A stretch of 43,626 nucleotides of DNA, taken from Clostridiales bacterium. GTDB taxonomy: Bacteria > Bacillota > Clostridia > Christensenellales > Pumilibacteraceae. The stretch is taken from the NCBI GenBank assembly GCA_029070965.1, contig JAIEBI010000050.1:1-43626 (forward strand), in the 5' to 3' direction. Positions 3,189 through 27,690 of this stretch are shown in pieces. The translations under genes were made by a program, and so were the position numbers. The notes beneath the pieces are model-generated. The model searched no databases. It had not been told where the DNA came from and was given only the letters and a program-made list of their open reading frames with translations. Position 1 is the stretch's first letter; every line of letters starts with the position of its first letter.

Positions 3189-3794
3189 ATGGATTTGGCA
3201 AGGGACAAAAACGGAAAGACCGAAGCGGAGTTTTTGCGTGATTATGACATTCGCCAATATTTTTGTCCGTCGGTGACGGTGGACGCAGTGCTTTACCGCG
3301 TGCTTGGCGATAGCGCACTGCGCGTTCTTATGATTAAGCGCGGCGGGCATCCGTTTATCGGTATGTATGCGTTCCCCGGGGGATTTGTGGAAAAGGACGA
3401 GTCGTGCGAAACGGCAGTCGCGCGCGAGCTTGAAGAAGAAACGGGCGTCAAAAATTTACCGTTGTGCCAACTGACCGCAGTGTCCACGCCCGACCGCGAT
3501 CCGCGCTGGCGCAACATAACGGTTGTGTACGCCGCCGAGGTGGACGATAATATCCGCTTTGCCGCGGGCGACGATGCCGCAGACGCCAAGTGGTTTGACG
3601 TGCGCTTGTCGGGTAACTCGCTTACGTTTACGTCGGGCGATGAAAAATTCGGCTGCACCTTAGACATTGCTTTTGACGGGTTCGGGCATGTCGATATTAA
3701 CAATACAAAAATCGTGGAGCGCGGGCTTGTCGCCTTCGACCACGCTAAGGTTATCTGCTATCTGTTAAACGAGCTTAAAAGGAGAGTAAAGTAA
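3189..3794 (+). CDS. Nudix hydrolase
   Basis: The 201-aa protein has a complete Nudix box, GGFVEKDESCETAVARELEEETGV (about residues 62-85, matching GX5EX7REUXEEXGU), which binds Mg2+ and cleaves nucleoside diphosphate-X compounds. The C-terminal LVAFDHAKVICYLLNELKRRV resembles the end of the Nudix domain in ADP-ribose-type enzymes and NrtR regulators, but no winged helix follows, so an enzyme is more likely than a regulator. ATG at 3189 follows AGGGAGA at 8 bases; the in-frame TTG at 3123 lies in the promoter. The stop codon overlaps the start of the asparaginase gene by one base, so the two are translationally coupled. Confidence 0.85.
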   Translation: MDLARDKNGKTEAEFLRDYDIRQYFCPSVTVDAVLYRVLGDSALRVLMIKRGGHPFIGMYAFPGGFVEKDESCETAVARELEEETGVKNLPLCQLTAVSTPDRDPRWRNITVVYAAEVDDNIRFAAGDDAADAKWFDVRLSGNSLTFTSGDEKFGCTLDIAFDGFGHVDINNTKIVERGLVAFDHAKVICYLLNELKRRVK

Positions 3795-4684
3795 TGAAAA
3801 TCAATTTGGTTGCAACGGGCGGTACGATAGGCAGTCGCTACGTAAAGGGCGAGCTTGTCATTTCGGACGCCGCGACTAAGCAAATCGCTTCGGTTATCGG
3901 CGCGAACAAGGTGTTCGGCGATTTTAAGATACATAGCGCCGGCGTTGTGTTTGACGACCTTAACACATTGCGCTTGACGATAGAAAAGGCGATAGAGGGC
4001 GCGGACGGCGTTGTTGTTACGCACGGCACGGATACGCTTGCCTTTACCGCGTCGTACTTGGCTTACGCGTTTGCGTCCGCCAAAATACCCATTGTTATGT
4101 GCGCGGCGGACAAACCGCTTACCGACGTTGACAGCAACGGTTTTGACGTGCTGACCGCGACAAAGAGCTTTATTGCGCGCGGCGAGCGCGGCGTGTACGT
4201 CTTGTACAAAAACCCCGGGGAGGTAGTGCGCATACACCACGGCGCGCGGCTTATCCCTGCGCATATGCACGAAAACTTTTACTTCTCGCTGGGTGGCAGT
4301 ACGTTTACCGACAGCGGACTTATGCGCGGCATGAACTTCGAGCTGGAAATGGGCAAGGTGCTGTGCATCGTTCCGTATATGGGCTTGGACTACGACGTTT
4401 ACGACCTTAAAGGCTATTCGGCGGTGGTGCAGGTGGCGTACCATTCGGGCAGGATAAACACAGGAACCTTTAACAAATTTGCCGAAAAAAATCCCGACGT
4501 GCCTATATTCCTGCTGTCGGGCGACAAAAAGTACGCACCCGACGCATTCCCCAAAAACGTGGTGCAGTGTCCCGCAATAACCCAAACCGCGCTGTATATG
4601 AAACTGCTTATAGCCATCAAGAACAACGTTAAGGATTTGCCCGCGTTTGTCAAAAAGAACGCGGTAGGGGAAATAGCGGAATAA
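3794..4684 (+). CDS. ansA: Type I L-asparaginase
   Basis: The 296-aa protein carries both asparaginase threonine motifs: TGGTIGS near residue 8 (first catalytic Thr) and VVVTHGTDTLAFTA near residue 75 (second Thr with Asp). It would hydrolyse L-asparagine to aspartate and ammonia in the cytosol; there is no signal peptide, which fits the type I group. The protein is slightly shorter than the usual 320-340 residues. ATG at 3794 overlaps the Nudix TAA, with AAAAGGAGAG just upstream. A glutaminase-asparaginase or related amidohydrolase remains possible. The stop codon abuts an AATTAAGAATT repeat. Confidence 0.88.
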   Translation: MKINLVATGGTIGSRYVKGELVISDAATKQIASVIGANKVFGDFKIHSAGVVFDDLNTLRLTIEKAIEGADGVVVTHGTDTLAFTASYLAYAFASAKIPIVMCAADKPLTDVDSNGFDVLTATKSFIARGERGVYVLYKNPGEVVRIHHGARLIPAHMHENFYFSLGGSTFTDSGLMRGMNFELEMGKVLCIVPYMGLDYDVYDLKGYSAVVQVAYHSGRINTGTFNKFAEKNPDVPIFLLSGDKKYAPDAFPKNVVQCPAITQTALYMKLLIAIKNNVKDLPAFVKKNAVGEIAE

Positions 4685-4735
4685 TTAAGAATTAAGAATG
4701 CAGAATTAAGAATTATAATAAGGTTGAGAATCCTC
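4683..4735. repeat. AATTAAGAATT repeat joined to an AAGGTTGAGA fragment
   Basis: Tandem AATTAAGAATT-type units with one GCAGAATT variant start at the stop codon of the asparaginase gene. They continue into AAGGTTGAGAATCCTCG, the left part of the repeat seen complete at 3052 and 36282. The same composite order recurs at 36245-36364. Confidence 0.75.
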
Positions 4736-4764
4736 GCTACGCTCGGATTGACAAAAGAAATAAA

Positions 4765-4796
4765 AAAATCGCACAGTTGTTAGCTGTGCGATTTTG
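4765..4796. terminator. Bidirectional terminator between convergent genes
   Basis: AAAATCGCACAG and CTGTGCGATTTT form a 12-base perfect stem with a 7-base loop and A/T flanks, between the plus-strand asparaginase and the minus-strand giant gene. Confidence 0.8.
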
Positions 4797-4810
4797 ATTT
4801 GATTCGAGGA

Positions 4811-4938
4811 GTATTTTTGCTTGCTTGCAAGGGCAAAAATACGACGACAACAAATTTGGTGTAATACCCCGCTGATTACAGCGGACTGTGCGCTTTGCGC
4901 ACAGATACAGGGCTTGCCCTGTGGTATAAACCAAATTT
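4811..4938. repeat. Cloverleaf-forming hairpin element
   Basis: A first hairpin pairs GTATTTTTGC (4811-4820) with GCAAAAATAC (4833-4842). Next, an outer stem pairs AAATTTGGT-GTA-ATACC (4852-4868) with GGTAT-AA-ACCAAATTT (4923-4938). It encloses three hairpins almost without gaps: CCGCTG/CAGCGG (4869-4884), CTGTGCGC/GCGCACAG (4886-4904) and ACAGGGC/GCCCTGT (4907-4922). The element lies 11 bases beyond the stop codon of the giant minus-strand gene, so it would be in that gene's 3' untranslated region. No open frame is credible here. Confidence 0.75.
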
Positions 4939-4948
4939 ATTGATTTTG

Positions 4949-7900
4949 TTACGCCGCTAACGAAGCTTCGTATGCCGCTTGCCACGGGCGCGTCCACTGT
5001 ATGCCGCCCTCGCGGTTTATAACGGCTGTGATTTTTCCGGCTTTGTCGCGTGTAACATTTGCCAGTATAGTGTTTATCAGTGATTTTACGTCGCTATCCT
5101 TTCCTGTCGGGGTTCTATTGCTATACACGGTTGCAGTCGATCCGTCAATCGTGTACTTTGTGCCGTTTATCGTAGTAGAGGACAGTCCTGTCGATTCAAG
5201 CTCTTGGCGTTTGAATTCGGTAGCGATATTATTGGGCGAGGGCTGTTTGAGAGCCTTGTCGGTGTAGTAGACAGTAGGTGTGGAGACGTTGCGCAACGAA
5301 ACATCCATCGATACGTCTATCAGGCCTACCATCGACGTCGCCAGAGTGAGCCTTTGTATGTAGTTGTCCAAAATGTTTTTATCGCCGTCGTTTGCGCCTA
5401 TAAGCGACAGTGACACATCACTGAGTGCGGTGCTTCCGGCAAGCTCCGCAAGCCCTATGACGATGTCGTGACTGCCGTTGTTGTATTGATAGCTTTTGAA
5501 TATTTGTGCCAAAGTATTTTGGGTATTATTGTTCGTGTCTTCCTTTGTAACGTTGTCTATAATAGTTTGCTGAACGTCCATGTCCCCGATAGAGTTAACG
5601 CATCGAGATAGCGGTAACAAACGGAATACAAATTCGTTAAGGAATTTTTCTATATCGTTGCTCATCATGTAACCAAGCTCGGATACCGTAAATGCCGCCT
5701 GTACCTCCTCGGTTTTCCAGTATATGCCATTGATAAGGCTATTATAGCTTCTGGTTATGTTGTCTTTTTTGGTACCGTGTTGCCAATCACGACCGACAAT
5801 GTATATCACGTCGTCGTAGAAGAATAGCCTTGTTGTACATTCGGGAAGTACGATGCCGTTTAATATTGCTGTGGATAATACCGTCATTTTTGGAATTTGC
5901 AGCTCTATATCCGCCGCTGTCGAATAACGAGGAGATGCGTCCTTACCGTTATCGAGAATTTTTACCTTAGCGTCAATTTTGATTTTTACATTTTCAAGCT
6001 GCAGTTTGCCTATGTGTAGGTTCAGGCTTATGCCATCGTCGGTGTCCAATCCGCCGATTTCGAATTCCAGCATATTCGCGGTGTTCATTACGTCGAACAG
6101 CAAGTGCTTTATGTTGGCAAAGTCGGAGTAGGCGGTTTTGCTGTCGGTGGTGAATTCGGACGTAGGCACCGTTATATCAAGCTCTTGACCGGCGGTGAAC
6201 TGCATGTCGAACGTGTTAAGCTTGGCTTTGTTGACGTCGAGATTGTCCACGCCGATGCTGTTTATTTTGTCACCGCTGCTCGCTACCTCTACCGTAGCCC
6301 AGCCTTCCGTGCCGGTGGCTACCGCGTTGTCCACGTATGCCGACAGCGCCGAATTCGCGCTTTGGAAATACACGGCGTTTACTACCTTGCCGAACAGTGC
6401 GCCGTTTATTTGTCCGTCCTCGTTGTTTTGTTCGTCGTCTTCGCCGTCGTCCGTTTTGAATAGGGCAATAGCCGCTTTAATGTGAGATATAGTGCTGTCC
6501 AAAAGCGTCTTGATAGTGCTTTCGGTAACGGTTTCGCCCTCGACCGACTTTTCGTCGTTCATCATTTCGTAGATAAGTGCGTCGATGCTGCCGGCGTTTT
6601 GCATTCTGCTCCAAGCGGCTTTGGCGTCGCCGAGCGCAAGCTTGGCTTCGTCAACCGCCTTTATAAGATTGTTGAGCAGGTCTTTTATGCTGTCCAAGCC
6701 CGCTATCGCCATTGACTCGAACACCGTTTTGTCGATATCCAGTCGGTACTTGCCGAGCAGCGATTCCACAGTTGCGTCGTCAACGCTGAGTATGTCGAGC
6801 GCAGCCGCAACGATTTCCATTATGGAGTTGTAGTCGAGCGAAATCTTTTCGCCGTAGCCGTTTGCTTCCTCGTAATGTAGGTACGCCAGCCCGTCGGGGT
6901 ATTGCTCGGTGGGTGCAACGTACAGGTTGAGCTTGATGGGGAAGCCCAGCTTACTTGCCGTGCTTTGCGTAACGCCGTCGTCCGACTCCTTTATGTCGAG
7001 CTTGATATGCGCTTCGATAAATATCTTGGACGATTTGGTGTCTACGCCGTCTATTGTTTGCGTCGTCGTAACGTACTTGAATTTAAGCGCCTGATTGCCT
7101 TCTATATTGTTTACGTCGATATGCTGCTTGACAACCTTGTTGCCGGCTTCGTCGGTTACTATTGCAGGGCGGCCCGCTTCGTCTTGGACCTCGACGATTT
7201 CGCCGTTTTCGTCCACTGTTGTCAGGATTTTGAATATGTCGTAGTCAAACGCAAATGTGTCTACCGAGAACGCGATTTGCGACACCGTTGTAGTGTTGCC
7301 GTCCTCGTCCGTAGTTACTTGGTCGGGAACCTTGGCGGTAATAGTGTTGACAGCATTGATTACCGCGTTGACAAACTCCACGACAGGTGTGTAGTTCGCC
7401 GCGTCGGTCGGCGTTATTGCGCCGAGCGGGGAGTCGGAGAATATAAGCTTGGCGGTAAGATTGAGGTTGAGCAGGTTGGACGCCGCTACGCCCAGCTTGA
7501 AATCGACCTTGCCGTCGGATATTATCGGCGTTACGTCGAGCGTGACGGTGAACGGCGAATCCATTACTATTACGCTTGCCGTAACGGCGTCGTTGAACTT
7601 GCCTATGCGGATCATATCCAAAGCCTGCACGATCATGCTCTTGCCGTACGCGTTGTCTTGGCTGAACATGATGCCGAGTATTTCCTCTGCGCCGTCAGCT
7701 GCCGCAATGTTCTTTATATCCTTGATAAGCGAGGATATGGACGACATCATTGATCCGATATCTTTAAGGCTGAGATATTCGGGTAAGTACTTAGCCATCG
7801 CGTCGTTTATGACCGCCATGTCGGTGGCGACGTTAAAGCTGAGTTTAATCTTGCCGATTTCTACGTATACAACGTTATTTTCGTATATCACGGTAACGGC

Positions 7901-10900
7901 AAGCGCGTCGTCGGTGCCGTAGAACAGCGTAAGCCGTACGCTGACGGCAATCGGGTCTAACGACAGGTCGATTACGCCGCTTATTGCCATTTCCTTGCCG
8001 CCGACGGTCAGCACAAAGTCGGAAACGTTTACCGTTATCGTCTTTGCTGTTTGGGCGCAATCTATCATATCCATAATCGGCGAGATGAACGGAATGAGCT
8101 CGCTTATTTCCATATAGACGCCGTCGGGGGCTACTGCACGTTTTTCGGCGGGCGTGACCGTCAAGTCAAGTCCGAAGCCTATGCCCATTATATCGGCGTT
8201 TGTGGTTTGTACACCGCAAAGCACGCCGTCAGCCGTTTGGACGTTAAGCGCAATCGCCATTTGCTTTCCGTCGATATTGCAATTCACGTTAATTGCGCTA
8301 AGAACGTTGTCCGCTATTACGATATCCGCATTGACGGTGGTTTTGCCGAACGTAGCGGCAAGCGCCATGCCGTTTTGAGTGGGGGACAGCGTTATGTTGT
8401 TAAGTATATCCGATATAGATATCTCTTTGTTCAACGAATTAAGTAACGACGTGACTTTGTCGTTAAGTCCGAGTTCGGGCAGCGCCCCGTCTATTTGCGC
8501 CAAAAGGTCTTTTATCGCGTTCTTGCTAAGCGGCTGGACAAGCCTTACTGAGCCGTTGTTGATATCGAGGTACAAGGTCTTGTTTACCACCGATACGGTG
8601 ACGGGTGCGCCCGCTACGTCGAGCCGCGCTTTTACGGCTACGGTGTCAAGTGTGTATTCGCCGAGGTCGATATAAACGTTGCCGGTAATCGTTTGACCGT
8701 ATACCGTTACGCTCACGCCGAGGTCGAACGCGTTTTGCTTAACGAGCGGCAGTATGCAGTCTATTGCCGTAAGTATGTCGCTTGCCTTAACGTATTCCGC
8801 GGTATTTACCGCAGGTACTGTTACATTGCTTGCGGTTATGCCTTTCAAGCTGAAATCGAACGCCATTTGATAGTGGTCGCCGAACGGTCCGCCAATGCCG
8901 TCAAAGGTGAGCGTTACGTCGCCGCTCATATAGGATAAGTCGGTAGCCATGCAAAGCGTAGCCGACAAGGCGCCGCGCGATATGCCGATATTAATTTGTT
9001 CACCGTCGATGGAAAGCGAAGTGAGCATTGCAAATATCGTGTCTATTGTTTTCGTTATATCCGTTTTGCCGTCGGTTGTCAGCTCGTCCTGCGACGGGAT
9101 GATACCCAGCATAATATCGGTCATCTTGACTATGTACGGGCGTATGGGATCGGGCAGATTGGGGATAACGGCGTCCATAATTTCGTTAATGTCCTTTAAC
9201 TGTCCGCTGACCTTTATGCCGCCGACCTCAATATACGCCGTATCGCCTAGCAGTATGACCGTAAGACCAAGCGAATCTTCCCTGACGATTGCTTTGAGCA
9301 TTCCGTCTTCTATTGTGCAGTCAATAGCCGCGTTTAGCGTTACGTCGCCTATAACAACGTTGGCTACCGTATGTATGCCGCCCGCTTCAATCATTTGCGT
9401 AGCGGCGGACGCCAAAGCCGAAAGCGCGGAAATATCCATATATTCGTTCGCGTCGGTAGGCGCGGTTATGGCGTGGCTCTTTTGGGCGGCGGTAATATTG
9501 ATATTAAGCTCGACGTTTACGCCGTTTATTGTGGCGGCAACAGCGATATTGCCCAATTTAAGATTAATGGCAACAGCTATATCGTAGCCCTCTACGTTAA
9601 GCGCAACGTTAAGTGTGCCGTCCGTCATTGTCAAGGACTTGATTGCACCGCTCATAGCTTCGGTCAAGTTTATTTCGGGCATTTCGTAATCGCCTGCAAT
9701 CAGCCCAACAAGCTGCATTATCGAGGATATAAATGAATTATCCGCCGTATCGAGCTTGGCTTTTATGTCGTTTATGCCGACGTATGCCGTGCCGTCTACG
9801 TACGTTACGGTTATATCCTGACCGAGCGCGCTAAGTCCGCCCGTTGCCGCTATGCCGACGGTGTTCTTGTCATTGTCGGTAAGTTTGTCTAATGCAAAGC
9901 TGCCGCTTATATCGTTACGTGTTCCGTCAATCTCAGCATAACCGTCTATTTCGGCGGTGTAGTAATCCGCGTCGAGGTAGGGTTTAGCTTGCTTGATCAG
10001 CGTGGCAAGGTCGGCAAAGGTGAGTGCGTCGTTTGTTTCGGGTGCTATCACTTCGCGCAACGCGGGCTCGCTTATATTAAGGTCGGCGGCTATATCGGCC
10101 TTTACGCCGAACAAATCGACGTTTACGCCGAGCGCGAGCGAACTGAGCTTGCCGTCAGCGCGAGTGAGCGTTAAGTTAATAGGCATGCCTATAAAGTTAA
10201 GACCGAGGTCGAGCGAATTGTCGTTTACCGAAACGGTGTCCAGCATTTCCGCTATTTCGTTGACCGACGACGGCAACATCGCTTTGAACAGTTTTTCGTA
10301 CTTGTTAAATCCGGTAACGTCGAGCAGTGCGGTCAAAAGCTGAGGAAGCTCCTCGATAGTGCCGCGTACGGTCACGCCGAGCGCAGTCGCGTAAACAGTT
10401 CCGTCGACGTACGTGACGAGCACGTCAATGCCAGCGACGTTGAGCGTTGCTTCCGCTTTGACGCCTTCCGTTCTATCGACGTACGCGGAAAGCCCGACAG
10501 TCGTATCGTTAAGGGTGAGCGTACCGTCTATGCCGTAAGTTTTTTGCATTGCGGTGGCGGCAATGTCGGGAACAAAGTCGAGCAAGCCCGACAAATCCTT
10601 TGCGCCGTCCAAAGGCGGGAAGGCGGGAGAGGTTTTAAGCGGTTCGACGTTGATTTCTATTATGGTATCGCCGATAGTCACGTTGCCCGTTATGGAGTCG
10701 AGCGATTTATCCTCGCTGTTAATAAAGATAGACGCGACAACTTGAACGTTGTTAAGCGCGGGGATAATATCGGACAGGTCGAGCGAGAACGACATGGGAA
10801 TTTCGGTTATGCCGTCCTCCTCGGTCATTTCGCAGTCCTTGAATATGACGTCCAGCATGTCGCCGCCGAATATCTTGTTTGTGTCAAGCTCGCCAAAGCT

Positions 10901-12238
10901 CAAAAGTCCTTTGAGTAAGGGATCCTCGGTAAGCTTTTTGGCGTCCTCGGTGGAAACGTAGCCGTTTATGTCGTTGTTCTTAACGTAAACCTTGTCGCCC
11001 GCATACTTGACGTATAAGCCGTTGCCGAGCATAGCCTGTATTTCGAGCGTGTCGAGGTTGACCGAAAGGTTAAGGTCGTACGCCGACAAATCGCCCAAAA
11101 GCGGAATGCCGTTGACATTTATGTCCGCGGTAAGGTCGAGGTTTTTCTCGCCCGAAAGATAGTCGGCAAACGCCGCGGCAAGATAGTCGGACGCCGAAAG
11201 GGGACCGCTTTGATCGATTTCGGGCGGCTTGTAGTCGGGATGAGCTTTGGCTTGATCGACGTACGGCTGGAAAAAGTCCTTTTCGGGGATTTCGCCGTTT
11301 TCGTCGTCAATCATAGTGAACGTTTCAAGGTTGTCGCCGCTGCAACGCATTGCGCCGAGCACGGGAATCTCTATATCGTATTCTTCCAGCGTGCGCGTGG
11401 AAATGGGGTTCCACTGCGAATCGACGGTTACGGTAATCTTGACCGAGTAGAATTTGGGGTTTTGGTCGGCGCCGCCCAGTGTGCGCACCTCGTTGCGGTA
11501 GTACAGCGACGATTCGGTGGGGTCGAGGGTGAGCGTGAACACGTAGTTGCCGTCGGCATCGGGCACGAGACTTTCGGGAACGTCAAAGCTCACATCGGCA
11601 TCGTCGCTGCCGTTGCTGTTAAGCCGAGGCGCCGTGGACGCGTTTTCATCCTTGACTGACAGTATTGTGTTCTTGTTGATTATGTATTTGCTAAGCTGGT
11701 TGGGAACCGCGCCGTAGTTTCGGCTGTACTGCTCGTACGACATTTGCGAGGCCGTTTTGGAAAAAGTGACCTTTTTGCCGTCTACCTTGGCATCGCGGTA
11801 AATGATTACGCCGTTGTCGATATATTTTTGTTCGGCTAAGCTTTTAAGACTGGACGTGGAAATCGTTTCGGTAAAAACTATGTTTTGGTCGTATACCACG
11901 CGGGTGTTGGTAAGGTATTGAGTGTAGTTGCCTACGCCTATGTCAGCCGAAACCTTGCCGTCGGTGTAGCCCTTGAAATACTTGGCATGGTGGATTTTGT
12001 ACGCGGTGTATTGAAGATTGGACAACAAGTCGTAATCGGCAGGGGAGCCCGTGGTCGGCGGCTGCGATTCCATGACAATCGTTTCGCCCCACTTTGCCGC
12101 GAACCTGCGGTTGTCGGTGTGAAATACGTTGGTAAATCCGGCAACTATGCCCAAAATAAGAATGGTTGCTATTATGTAAATTATGACGTTACGCCGAGAA
12201 ATCAGCGAGGATCTTTTGGATAAGAGAGAATTTGACAT
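4949..12238 (-). CDS. Giant membrane-anchored protein of repeated beta-rich modules
   Basis: At 2,429 residues this is by far the longest gene here. A short basic N-terminus (ending SRRN) precedes one hydrophobic helix (about residues 18-37), giving a signal-anchor with the rest outside the cell. Residues about 350-1,550 contain roughly six modules spaced 180-230 residues apart. Each is marked by two beta strands around a turn such as TYVDGTVYATALGV, TYVDGTAYVGINDIK or LLGDTAYIEVGGIK, then an amphipathic helix such as IEELPQLLTALLD. Weaker copies occur near residues 1,778 and 2,137. The strand-turn-Y-strand-helix pattern recalls LolA/LppX/LprG lipoprotein-carrier folds; this is inference. There is no LPXTG signal. 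Promoter and GGAG site precede the ATG. Function is unknown; lipid handling or an envelope-spanning scaffold are guesses. Confidence 0.85.
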   Translation of the reverse strand: MSNSLLSKRSSLISRRNVIIYIIATILILGIVAGFTNVFHTDNRRFAAKWGETIVMESQPPTTGSPADYDLLSNLQYTAYKIHHAKYFKGYTDGKVSADIGVGNYTQYLTNTRVVYDQNIVFTETISTSSLKSLAEQKYIDNGVIIYRDAKVDGKKVTFSKTASQMSYEQYSRNYGAVPNQLSKYIINKNTILSVKDENASTAPRLNSNGSDDADVSFDVPESLVPDADGNYVFTLTLDPTESSLYYRNEVRTLGGADQNPKFYSVKITVTVDSQWNPISTRTLEEYDIEIPVLGAMRCSGDNLETFTMIDDENGEIPEKDFFQPYVDQAKAHPDYKPPEIDQSGPLSASDYLAAAFADYLSGEKNLDLTADINVNGIPLLGDLSAYDLNLSVNLDTLEIQAMLGNGLYVKYAGDKVYVKNNDINGYVSTEDAKKLTEDPLLKGLLSFGELDTNKIFGGDMLDVIFKDCEMTEEDGITEIPMSFSLDLSDIIPALNNVQVVASIFINSEDKSLDSITGNVTIGDTIIEINVEPLKTSPAFPPLDGAKDLSGLLDFVPDIAATAMQKTYGIDGTLTLNDTTVGLSAYVDRTEGVKAEATLNVAGIDVLVTYVDGTVYATALGVTVRGTIEELPQLLTALLDVTGFNKYEKLFKAMLPSSVNEIAEMLDTVSVNDNSLDLGLNFIGMPINLTLTRADGKLSSLALGVNVDLFGVKADIAADLNISEPALREVIAPETNDALTFADLATLIKQAKPYLDADYYTAEIDGYAEIDGTRNDISGSFALDKLTDNDKNTVGIAATGGLSALGQDITVTYVDGTAYVGINDIKAKLDTADNSFISSIMQLVGLIAGDYEMPEINLTEAMSGAIKSLTMTDGTLNVALNVEGYDIAVAINLKLGNIAVAATINGVNVELNINITAAQKSHAITAPTDANEYMDISALSALASAATQMIEAGGIHTVANVVIGDVTLNAAIDCTIEDGMLKAIVREDSLGLTVILLGDTAYIEVGGIKVSGQLKDINEIMDAVIPNLPDPIRPYIVKMTDIMLGIIPSQDELTTDGKTDITKTIDTIFAMLTSLSIDGEQINIGISRGALSATLCMATDLSYMSGDVTLTFDGIGGPFGDHYQMAFDFSLKGITASNVTVPAVNTAEYVKASDILTAIDCILPLVKQNAFDLGVSVTVYGQTITGNVYIDLGEYTLDTVAVKARLDVAGAPVTVSVVNKTLYLDINNGSVRLVQPLSKNAIKDLLAQIDGALPELGLNDKVTSLLNSLNKEISISDILNNITLSPTQNGMALAATFGKTTVNADIVIADNVLSAINVNCNIDGKQMAIALNVQTADGVLCGVQTTNADIMGIGFGLDLTVTPAEKRAVAPDGVYMEISELIPFISPIMDMIDCAQTAKTITVNVSDFVLTVGGKEMAISGVIDLSLDPIAVSVRLTLFYGTDDALAVTVIYENNVVYVEIGKIKLSFNVATDMAVINDAMAKYLPEYLSLKDIGSMMSSISSLIKDIKNIAAADGAEEILGIMFSQDNAYGKSMIVQALDMIRIGKFNDAVTASVIVMDSPFTVTLDVTPIISDGKVDFKLGVAASNLLNLNLTAKLIFSDSPLGAITPTDAANYTPVVEFVNAVINAVNTITAKVPDQVTTDEDGNTTTVSQIAFSVDTFAFDYDIFKILTTVDENGEIVEVQDEAGRPAIVTDEAGNKVVKQHIDVNNIEGNQALKFKYVTTTQTIDGVDTKSSKIFIEAHIKLDIKESDDGVTQSTASKLGFPIKLNLYVAPTEQYPDGLAYLHYEEANGYGEKISLDYNSIMEIVAAALDILSVDDATVESLLGKYRLDIDKTVFESMAIAGLDSIKDLLNNLIKAVDEAKLALGDAKAAWSRMQNAGSIDALIYEMMNDEKSVEGETVTESTIKTLLDSTISHIKAAIALFKTDDGEDDEQNNEDGQINGALFGKVVNAVYFQSANSALSAYVDNAVATGTEGWATVEVASSGDKINSIGVDNLDVNKAKLNTFDMQFTAGQELDITVPTSEFTTDSKTAYSDFANIKHLLFDVMNTANMLEFEIGGLDTDDGISLNLHIGKLQLENVKIKIDAKVKILDNGKDASPRYSTAADIELQIPKMTVLSTAILNGIVLPECTTRLFFYDDVIYIVGRDWQHGTKKDNITRSYNSLINGIYWKTEEVQAAFTVSELGYMMSNDIEKFLNEFVFRLLPLSRCVNSIGDMDVQQTIIDNVTKEDTNNNTQNTLAQIFKSYQYNNGSHDIVIGLAELAGSTALSDVSLSLIGANDGDKNILDNYIQRLTLATSMVGLIDVSMDVSLRNVSTPTVYYTDKALKQPSPNNIATEFKRQELESTGLSSTTINGTKYTIDGSTATVYSNRTPTGKDSDVKSLINTILANVTRDKAGKITAVINREGGIQWTRPWQAAYEASLAA

Positions 12239-12566: not shown

Positions 12567-12619
12567 AAAACGACACACACAAAGTGTATGTCGTTTTTTG
12601 TGGTAGCGGGGGCGGGGTT
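12567..12619. repeat. Direct-repeat copy of tRNA 3' end and terminator (copy 1)
   Basis: These 53 bases repeat 12779-12832 with a single-base length difference. On the minus strand they hold the last about 20 bases of the initiator tRNA (T-stem 3' half, acceptor 3' strand and CCA), then the CGACATACAC-GTGTGTGTCG terminator hairpin. The rest of the tRNA is absent, so this copy is a remnant, not a gene. Confidence 0.8.
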
Positions 12620-12778: not shown

Positions 12779-12811
12779 AAAACGACACACACAAAAGTGT
12801 ATGTCGTTTTT
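12779..12811 (-). terminator. Terminator of the initiator tRNA gene
   Basis: On the minus strand, AACGACATACAC, a TTTT loop and GTGTGTGTCGTT followed by TTTTT lie directly after the tRNA CCA end. Confidence 0.85.
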
Positions 12812-12813
12812 TG

Positions 12814-12890
<77 letters not shown>

Positions 12891-14714: not shown

Positions 14715-14816
14715 TGTACAATAAACCGTAATTTAGCGGGACAAAGGCCTATTTTAATTGGTTATAATAGTGAGTAAAATTAATGCCCACTTCGTTTAAT
14801 ACATAGGAGGGTCTTT

Positions 14817-15359
14817 ATGAAAATCAAGAAGTTGCTGATATCGCTGTTGCTATTGATAAGCTGTATGTTTGCTCTGGCAGGGTGTGGGAATCAATATAAC
14901 GCCACTTTGACTTACACGCGATATGATGGCCTTAAAGGGTATATCAATGAGGGCTTTTTAGAAGAAAATAAAATTTACGGCGCTTGTTATGAAACTTATT
15001 CCGAAGAAAATGGCACGGAATATGTTAGATTAAAGGACGAAACGTTTCCGCGTACTCGAACTTTTATTATTAAATCTAAAAAAGAATTTGACAATATCTT
15101 TATTGAAAAACCGCAGGAACTGAATATTGATTTTGAAAATCAAATACTCATAATTCATACTGATACAACTCTTTATAACCGACCGATTAAGCTACAAACC
15201 GTGAAAGCAGATGACAATATTTTAACGATCAAAATGAAAATGAACGATGGTAAACACGGAGTGGGCAGCGCGAGTATGCCTTGTCAAATATATTTATTTG
15301 TCGTTATGGATAAGGTAGATATAACAACGGCTAACTGCGAACTATTGAACGCAGGATAA
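14817..15359 (+). CDS. Putative lipoprotein (paralogue 1)
   Basis: The 180-aa protein opens with a lipoprotein signal peptide (MKIKKLLISLLLLISCMFA followed by lipobox LAGC), so it should be lipid-anchored outside the membrane. The mature part is strand-rich, with a segment from IKSKKEFDNIF to a late IYLFVVMDKVDI that parallels the next gene. ATG at 14817 follows AGGAGG. The signal peptide is almost identical to that of the downstream gene, so the two probably arose by tandem duplication and then diverged. Base composition is clearly more AT-rich than the flanking housekeeping genes. Function is unknown. Confidence 0.75.
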   Translation: MKIKKLLISLLLLISCMFALAGCGNQYNATLTYTRYDGLKGYINEGFLEENKIYGACYETYSEENGTEYVRLKDETFPRTRTFIIKSKKEFDNIFIEKPQELNIDFENQILIIHTDTTLYNRPIKLQTVKADDNILTIKMKMNDGKHGVGSASMPCQIYLFVVMDKVDITTANCELLNAG

Positions 15360-15398
15360 ATCGAGTAAACACTAATCCCATTTACATAGGAGGCTTTG

Positions 15399-16235
15399 AT
15401 GAAAGTCAAGAAGTCGCTAATGTCGCTGTTGCTCTTGATAAGTTGTATGTTTGCTTTTTCGGCTTGCTCAAAAGAAGATACTACTTGCTTGAACTTTGAC
15501 GAAAACAGCACTGTAACTTTAACATATAGTTGTGTGGATGAAGAAAAGAATTTTGAAGCCGAACTAAACGCCGAGCAGTCGCGCGATTTGATACTTGCCT
15601 TAAATAAAATCACTTACGTCGAAGTAAAAGAACATATTGATTTCGGTCCTTCATACGACTGTTTGAGAATGGCTATCGGAAACGATAATCTCGCTTTATA
15701 CGACGTTTGGTATAAGATTAATTATGGCGGATATTTCTATTTTAACGGAAAATTTTGCGAAACGAAAGAGAAATTCAAATTTTTAGGTTCTTATATGAAT
15801 GAATACTCTCCCGATTATATTTCGAATAGTGTTTCTTTCGGAGTGCAATATGTAAGACCGGGCGTCGCTACAGAAGATAACTGTCAAATAATTAAAAGCG
15901 TTAGCGAACTTAATGATTATATCGCAGCTAAAACACAAAATACTGATTTGCCCGATTATGTATTGTTCCGAGACGAAGTAATTAGTAAGTATAACGACGA
16001 GTATTTTAAAAATTCTTTTATAGTCATTGTTATGAAAGCAGTCAGTAGCGGTTCATTTGATTTCAGGATAAACGATGTTCTAATAAGCAAAGATAGATTG
16101 ATTATCAATTATGAAATTTCTTTGCCTGCGGGCGAAGACGCCGCAACTTGTGATATGGCATATTGGTATTCTTTTGTTGAATTAAGCAATGAATATAGTA
16201 CAATAAACAATGTGGATTTAATTGGATTAGAATAA
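15399..16235 (+). CDS. Putative lipoprotein (paralogue 2), PrcB-like C-terminus
   Basis: The 278-aa protein starts MKVKKSLMSLLLLISCMFA with lipobox FSAC, a near copy of the previous leader. ATG at 15399 follows TAGGAGG. The C-terminal 100 residues (from IIKSVSELNDYIA through YFKNSFIVIVMKAVSSGS to a CDMAYWYSFVEL end) resemble the PrcB_C-type beta domain found in clostridial lipoproteins. That assignment is by pattern only. The coding sequence is AT-rich. It lies 39 bases after paralogue 1 without a terminator and is followed by a strong hairpin at 16301. Function is unknown. Confidence 0.75.
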   Translation: MKVKKSLMSLLLLISCMFAFSACSKEDTTCLNFDENSTVTLTYSCVDEEKNFEAELNAEQSRDLILALNKITYVEVKEHIDFGPSYDCLRMAIGNDNLALYDVWYKINYGGYFYFNGKFCETKEKFKFLGSYMNEYSPDYISNSVSFGVQYVRPGVATEDNCQIIKSVSELNDYIAAKTQNTDLPDYVLFRDEVISKYNDEYFKNSFIVIVMKAVSSGSFDFRINDVLISKDRLIINYEISLPAGEDAATCDMAYWYSFVELSNEYSTINNVDLIGLE

Positions 16236-27423: not shown

Positions 27424-27540
27424 ACAAGTTAAATATGATTTTTCGGGCGTTCGTGTGCGTTATTCGTCATGTAATTATTTGAGGAATTTACTTTAAACTT
27501 TGTTTTAGTCGGCGGATTTTTGGGCAAAATTTATAATAAC

Positions 27541-27690
27541 ATTGCACAAGCCGCTTGCGCGTCTTATTTGAGAGCAAGCTCTCAAAGCAAAATGCAGGCA
27601 TTTTGCGTGTCGCTATTGTTACACGGCGCAAAAATGCCATTGCAAGCAAGCATTTTTTGCTTGTTATATGATAGTAAAAAAATTTTTACT
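27541..27690. repeat. Multi-hairpin element upstream of spoVG
   Basis: Consecutive hairpins are visible: CAAG/CTTG, TTTGAGAG/CTCTCAAA, GCAAAATGC/GCATTTTGC, GTGT/ACAC and GCAAAAATGC/GCATTTTTTGC. An outer ACAAGC/GCTTGT pair surrounds them and AGTAAAAA/TTTTTACT follows. A 67-aa frame here (27520-27723) is not credible. The remainder of the 336-base gap between murC and spoVG (27424-27540) shows nothing definite. Confidence 0.6.

Follow-up and report, generated by a model that had tools for sequence, protein, structure and literature searches.

What is the strongly folded stretch at positions 4852-4938 of the window, by which we mean the whole 43,626-nucleotide piece of Clostridiales bacterium DNA analysed here: a structure serving the host's own RNAs, or a piece of DNA that moves? 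Folded alone, it reaches a minimum free energy (MFE) of -44.4 kcal/mol, as compared with -20.6 +/- 3.05 for shuffled sequences (z of -7.8, with 0/200 shuffles as good), and its shape is that of a four-way junction, in which an outer stem of 9+5 pairs (4852-4860 with 4930-4938 and 4864-4868 with 4923-4927) surrounds three abutting hairpins of 6, 8 and 6 pairs (4869-4884, 4886-4904 and 4907-4922, all on the plus strand). The original prediction, namely that such a shape is far from chance, is borne out by these values, and so are its 14 pairs in the outer stem and its 6 and 8 pairs in the first two hairpins; the third hairpin, to which it gave 7 pairs, has 6. It had also held that the structure is not a tRNA. 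Indeed, ARAGORN finds no tRNA at 4852-4938 and Rfam 15 has no match at gathering score to the window cloverleaf, which together rule out a tRNA or a known RNA as its identity. At 14 loci holding relatives of the element, Rfam 15 likewise gives nothing at gathering score, its four matches all falling below it.

Location and extent of the element

The cloverleaf is intergenic, lying between an asparaginase-like open reading frame (ORF) at 3794-4684 on the plus strand, with a match to PF00710, and a giant ORF at 4949-12238 on the minus strand, the two being convergent. The original prediction's placement of it in the giant gene's 3' region is right only if the 3' flank is meant: a location inside the gene is ruled out by the ORF map, and 8 bases separate the end of the element from the stop codon. 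The giant ORF itself encodes 2,429 amino acids and has no Pfam match at E 0.01. What is more, the cloverleaf is the larger, 3' part of a 137-base element at 4804-4940 on the plus strand (TCGAGGAG...CCAAATTTAT), whose ends were set by homology among copies and by empty sites in relatives. In other words, the structure had been seen correctly, while its extent and its character as a mobile repeat had been missed.

The element opens with a 5' subterminal hairpin of its own (4811-4842, plus strand), which in the window copy has 12 pairs, 4811-4822 with 4831-4842, is supported by its fold and by covariation, and has GAGGA before its foot, as in most copies; it closes with the tetranucleotide TTAT at 4937-4940. 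The end signatures are TCGAGGAG followed by the hairpin on the left, and CCTAATTTAT on the right. Directly 5' of the element stands the target flank TTGAT (4799-4803), and just 5' of the insertion there is a host terminator-like hairpin with a T tract (4769-4795), both on the plus strand; the hairpin is also present at the empty sites, and hence lies outside the element. A separate dispersed repeat, which recurs in the window and in genomes of the genus, is found just upstream, at 4682-4759 (AATTAAGAATTAAGAATGCAG... and then GAGAATCCTCG...).

Copies and distribution

Searching the own genome at the DNA level gave 15 matches; 11 have E <= 4e-6, and the other four are 14-15 nt long, with E from 0.6 to 2.1. 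In the 11 copies, homology starts upstream of the cloverleaf, at the hairpin preceded by GAGGA, and stops at AATTTA(T). R1, a covariance model built from these copies, gives 28 matches in the same genome: 13 full-length ones (at least 128.8 bits), 11 opposite-strand echoes, in which the same palindromic places are matched again, and 4 weaker distinct places. The original prediction had proposed scanning the genome and its relatives in just this way, and such a scan finds a match in 19/20 genomes of the genus at E <= 0.001 and in 30/74 genomes of the family, from 10/18 genera, at E <= 1e-6. The exact 5'-end pattern occurs in 62 stretches of the genome collection, all titled as MAGs, which bear the names uncultured Clostridia or Clostridiales bacterium or, in the case of one isolate, the label Roseburia sp. 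The same pattern was found in 0 viral contigs, and we reject carriage of the element by phages on this ground.

The length ranges from 73 to 345 nt over 83 elements, too short to encode a transposase, in a set of 82-83 copies that was chosen by end patterns including the outermost left T and the right AATTTA and that consequently favours conserved ends; the window copy is outside this set, its 3' end having failed the pattern. A second, diverged family with the same architecture and other end sequences is represented in the window at 27533-27669 on the minus strand (33.2 bits, E 3.1e-5), where a 5' hairpin, an outer stem and inner hairpins can be recognised, as well as at L286, L285 and L039. 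By eye, all four copies have TTAT at the right end or within one base of it.

Covariation and variable interiors

The element keeps its fold while its paired interior is hypervariable. Namely, in a structure that we specified, the 11 own copies carry two-sided changes at 23/51 pairs, amounting to 56 cells as opposed to 16.0 +/- 3.4 in shuffles; sliding the structure along the same copies leaves 3-8 pairs with two-sided changes, a control that is biased since the structure was derived from these very sequences. Moreover, given 34 copies (32 from the genus; the remaining 2, in G051 and G023, belong to different genera of the family), RNAalifold independently predicts 32 pairs, of which 21 have two-sided changes. 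Inner hairpins 1 and 3 covary both in the own copies and in this larger set; inner hairpin 2, where the alignment is poor, is missed by RNAalifold and is supported by its fold and by covariation in the own copies. The compensatory changes that the original prediction had suggested looking for are thus abundant, and with 13 full-length copies in its own genome the element is not unique to this locus.

Do such paired changes reflect selection for a structure in RNA or single-stranded DNA? They could instead stem from correction of DNA palindromes, i.e., from template switching at replication hairpins, a process that concerns covariation only and is compatible with mobility. In particular, the inner hairpins have very small loops and are palindromic almost throughout, G-T makes up only 3.8% of their pairs, and entire hairpins and domains vary between copies, all as this process would have it. 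However, over the counted columns the plus strand has 27 G-T pairs and 9 A-C mismatches, counts taken from related sequences and hence non-independent, and this excess, which suggests that one strand carries the structure, would not arise from a symmetric process. What is more, the 5' hairpin and the outer stem covary too. For part of the signal, palindrome correction is still an alternative, and we treat it as a real possibility, albeit one that we would on balance bet against.

The ends are conserved; the inner hairpins vary in sequence, number and content, and forms of about 74, 90, 133-150, 209 and 270-345 nt occur with ends common to all. Judging from its sequence, the 74-nt form looks like the outcome of a loss of the three-hairpin core between the near-direct repeats GGTGTAATACC and GGTATAATACC. 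At one insertion site, G013 and G015 have a similar shortened core and different 5' domains, a simple hairpin versus a complex domain with roughly 70 nt more. The long forms, mostly from G009, contain a pair of related modules that have GTAAGCAATG..TCGYGCARCATTYGGYTGCC in common; the module of the 5' hairpin is represented by 14 distinct sequences and that of hairpin 3 by 19. When 396 genomes sampled from the order, a sample without G009, G013 and G014, were searched for the core of this module, two had it, G011 and G015, which both belong to the window's genus; the own genome has none. In G015 the module core also occurs in two other, larger structured intergenic stretches, L288 and L289, the latter between ORFs read as rpmJ and rpsM.

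Insertion sites and ends

The window locus can be aligned in three relatives, G015, G014 and G013, all of which lack the element and have the upstream terminator-like hairpin. The empty sites of G014 and G015 read ATTGAT-TGA and the filled site of the window reads TTGAT-[TCGAGG...AATTTAT]-TGATTTTG, so that TTGAT is present in both; in G013 the element is absent, but the target itself also differs. Compared with G014 and G015, the junction shows no target duplication beyond a possible AT, i.e., a 2-bp AT duplication at junctions is possible. For six copies of G014, the joined flanks were searched against the genus for empty sites: three of them (L129, L097 and L099) have precise junctions relative to their relatives, L063 is left out of the precise ones, given its difference of about 10 nt at the target, and for L212 and L240 no empty relative was found in the genus. 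Together with the window site, this makes four precise empty-site comparisons in all. Comparisons between G009 and G005 were discarded as junction evidence, their alignment being too poor to define junctions. At L097, comparison with L269 shows that the element breaks up the final codons of a reading frame which G015 has intact. It should be noted that presence and absence alone fit insertion as well as precise excision.

Of 82 copies, 45 have TTAT as their left flank, 9 have CTAT and 8 have TGAT; at the right end, 71 have TTAT. Since 32/37 copies whose left flank is not TTAT still end in TTAT, the right tetranucleotide belongs to the element. Terminal inverted repeats are absent from the 83 elements, with a mean of 4.1/15 matches and a maximum of 6. 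As for terminators, a lax test is positive for 37/81 left flanks, 12/81 right flanks and 66/405 background cases, and a strict one for 5/81 left flanks, 1/81 right flanks and 207/46,436 background positions, the latter taken from whole loci and so mostly coding; the folding energies of the flanks are weaker than that of the background (-7.6 left, -7.2 right, -10.0 background). On the lax and strict tests, we reject insertion behind terminators as a general rule; the window copy does follow a terminator, but it is outside the 81-flank set.

Would these observations not be explained equally well by an immobile, functional RNA, namely a cis-regulatory or terminator structure of the host genes? 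The stable fold, the covariation and the intergenic position would all be at home in such an explanation. However, the copies are dispersed and their orientation to neighbouring ORFs is varied (14, 13, 12 and only 2 convergent in a crude survey around 41 copies), the orthologous locus lacks the element in three relatives in which the host terminator is still there, and the L097 copy breaks into the end of its reading frame. The empty sites already contradict a fixed RNA, and we give it hardly any credence.

How the element may move

The element comes in dispersed copies with fixed asymmetric ends and a conserved fold, and has filled and empty sites with a precise junction. The window copy is one of a non-autonomous mobile element, and by analogy this would move like PATEs and members of IS200/IS605, an account that we favour tentatively, at slightly less than an even chance. 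It is from the anatomy of the element only that we infer a Y1-like mover. Namely, the subterminal hairpins of a single DNA strand would be recognised by a Y1-type (HUH tyrosine) transposase that is provided in trans. The enzyme would cut the element at the TTAT of its right end and the target at a tetranucleotide resembling TTAT (TGAT at the window); the element would be joined immediately 3' of this target tetranucleotide, and the target would not be duplicated. The accessible part of PMC6006769 gives the end cleavage logic of IS200/IS605 in such terms, with a target tetranucleotide at the left end and a right end that finishes in a tetranucleotide. The inner hairpins would be altered by repeat-mediated deletion and exchange, changes that the element would tolerate since its mobility would depend on nothing but the ends and the folded shape. 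In transcribed copies, the hairpins may act on host transcripts in the manner of other small structured repeats.

A search for PF01797 (Y1_Tnp) at E 0.001 gave no match in the element-rich genus genomes G000, G007, G009, G013 and G014, and the own genome has no such match; the domain is found in only 4/20 genomes of the genus and in 31/74 of the family, 27 over the cut-off. R1 detects no element in 20 loci fetched around the family's Y1_Tnp matches, some of which are below Pfam's cut-off, and two Y1 loci inspected, L112 and L113, have ends that differ from those of the element. In G009, a RAYT-like HMM and tblastn gave nothing credible in 1,196,185 bases (1.196 Mb) of about 1.8 Mb, the best tblastn match (E 0.008) lying in a 438-aa ORF that is read as MiaB-like and being rejected as false. 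In the pattern lists of the genus, hand-checked for G009 only, no pair of a 5' and a 3' end enclosing a gene, i.e., no autonomous copy, was seen.

It may therefore be asked whether the same mobile element is moved by something other than a Y1 transposase, be it a recombinase, a nuclease, or host replication or repair acting on hairpins, possibly with the 2-bp AT duplication. Apart from the failure to find Y1 in the element-rich genomes of the genus, such a mover would agree with the local GC skew, which is positive in 30/66 cases and shows no strand bias, a weak proxy in draft genomes, and with the self-comparison of 1.196 Mb of G009, where none of the 40 longest among 2,180 self-matches exceeds 76% identity and no recent multi-copy transposon stands out in these 40. 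That said, the insertion geometry and the asymmetric hairpin ends match those of Y1 elements, and with Y1_Tnp in 31/74 family genomes, supply in trans or recent loss is possible. We take another mover to be a serious contender, if a somewhat improbable one; if true, it would amount to a novel mechanism for mobilising short structured DNA.

Movement through RNA, in which a transcript would be reverse transcribed from its 3' end into the target and leave 5'-truncated, SINE-like copies behind, seems quite improbable to us. Its appeal lies in the G009 copies, paired by hand, seven of which keep only the 3' part (L146, L147, L149, L150, L152, L153 and L154) and two only the 5' part (L159 and a second place in L165), with 5/7 of the truncations at the base of hairpin 3; the G-T excess on the plus strand and the position of some copies directly behind terminators would fit as well. 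However, the imbalance of 7 vs 2 is not significant, RVT_1 occurs in only 3/20 genomes of the genus and in none of G000, G007, G013 and G014, and six reverse transcriptase (RT) loci lack a group II intron match at gathering score, on which grounds we reject both a group II intron and SINE-like retrotransposition. Two RT loci of equal score, L167 and L170, are present in G009, and the ORFs adjoining the RT of L167 suggest a diversity-generating retroelement, which is a further point against the RNA route.

In a more sweeping version, which we consider unlikely, the element would belong to a superfamily within one clostridial family, with fixed ends and a fixed branched shape, whose interior helices can be rewritten in a base-paired way. 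Its mover, not a known transposase in these hosts, would read the shape and a TTAT-like target, and its large forms would use a conserved structured module of 60-95 nt twice.

Relation to known elements

The architecture of the element is of the PATE type, related to IS200/IS605, with a BOX-like modular interior. The PATEs of Haloquadratum walsbyi, as portrayed in the accessible part of PMC3119063, have ends that resemble IS605-type transposons, and their terminal-only forms are ascribed to repeat-mediated core deletion. In keeping with that part of the source, the present element has no terminal inverted repeats, carries palindromes near its termini, shows no target duplication in its junctions apart from the possible 2-bp AT, is too short for a transposase and has short terminal-only forms, here of 74 nt. 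Unlike the PATEs of the same partial account, it has no IS605-type transposon with these ends in the loci examined, and its right-hand palindrome encloses a covarying interior of three or more hairpins (PMC3119063).

With IS200/IS605 and REP/RAYT, as far as the available portion of PMC6006769 describes them, the element shares subterminal hairpins, a left target tetranucleotide, a right-end tetranucleotide and precise junctions. In particular, it resembles IS200/IS605 in being inserted 3' of a fixed tetranucleotide, with a TTAT-like preference and four precise empty-site comparisons; it differs in that no transposase with these ends was found, the own genome having no PF01797 match. A lagging-strand orientation bias is not seen by local GC skew, which is a weak proxy. 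Canonical REPs, in that same portion, differ from our copies, which are longer, branched and without GTAG or GTGG (PMC6006769). BOX elements of Streptococcus pneumoniae and S. suis, in the accessible part of PMC3049150, are thought to be non-autonomous mobile elements, with end modules around variable interior modules and predicted stem-loops, which is also the plan of our element, and a similarity of their terminal inverted repeats to a transposon has been proposed; unlike BOX, the element is without inverted repeats, and the likeness described here is one of plan. Finally, classic MITEs, according to the part of PMC10969869 available, are similarly short, dispersed, folded and largely intergenic, but the element does not have their terminal inverted repeats or target duplication. 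No description of the cloverleaf element was found in the open-licence papers covered.

With many copies per genome, and filled and empty sites in close relatives, the element provides a natural library of shape-preserving variants, with which one can ask which features of a folded end are read by a transposase and how both sides of a stem come to change. It is also a warning that covarying, RNA-like intergenic structures can be mobile DNA.

Other repeats

Several repeats of other kinds were encountered. In G009, L382:13463-14335 is taken up by a hairpin-rich tandem repeat (GTCATTTCGACC...GAGAAATCC) that has no long ORF and has many diverged matches in that genome. In the window, an exact 39-nt repeat is found at 12581-12619 and, overlapping the gene for tRNA-Met (12814-12890), again at 12794-12832, and two neighbouring ORF starts, at 14814-14873 and 15396-15455, have a 60-nt stretch in common at 88% identity.
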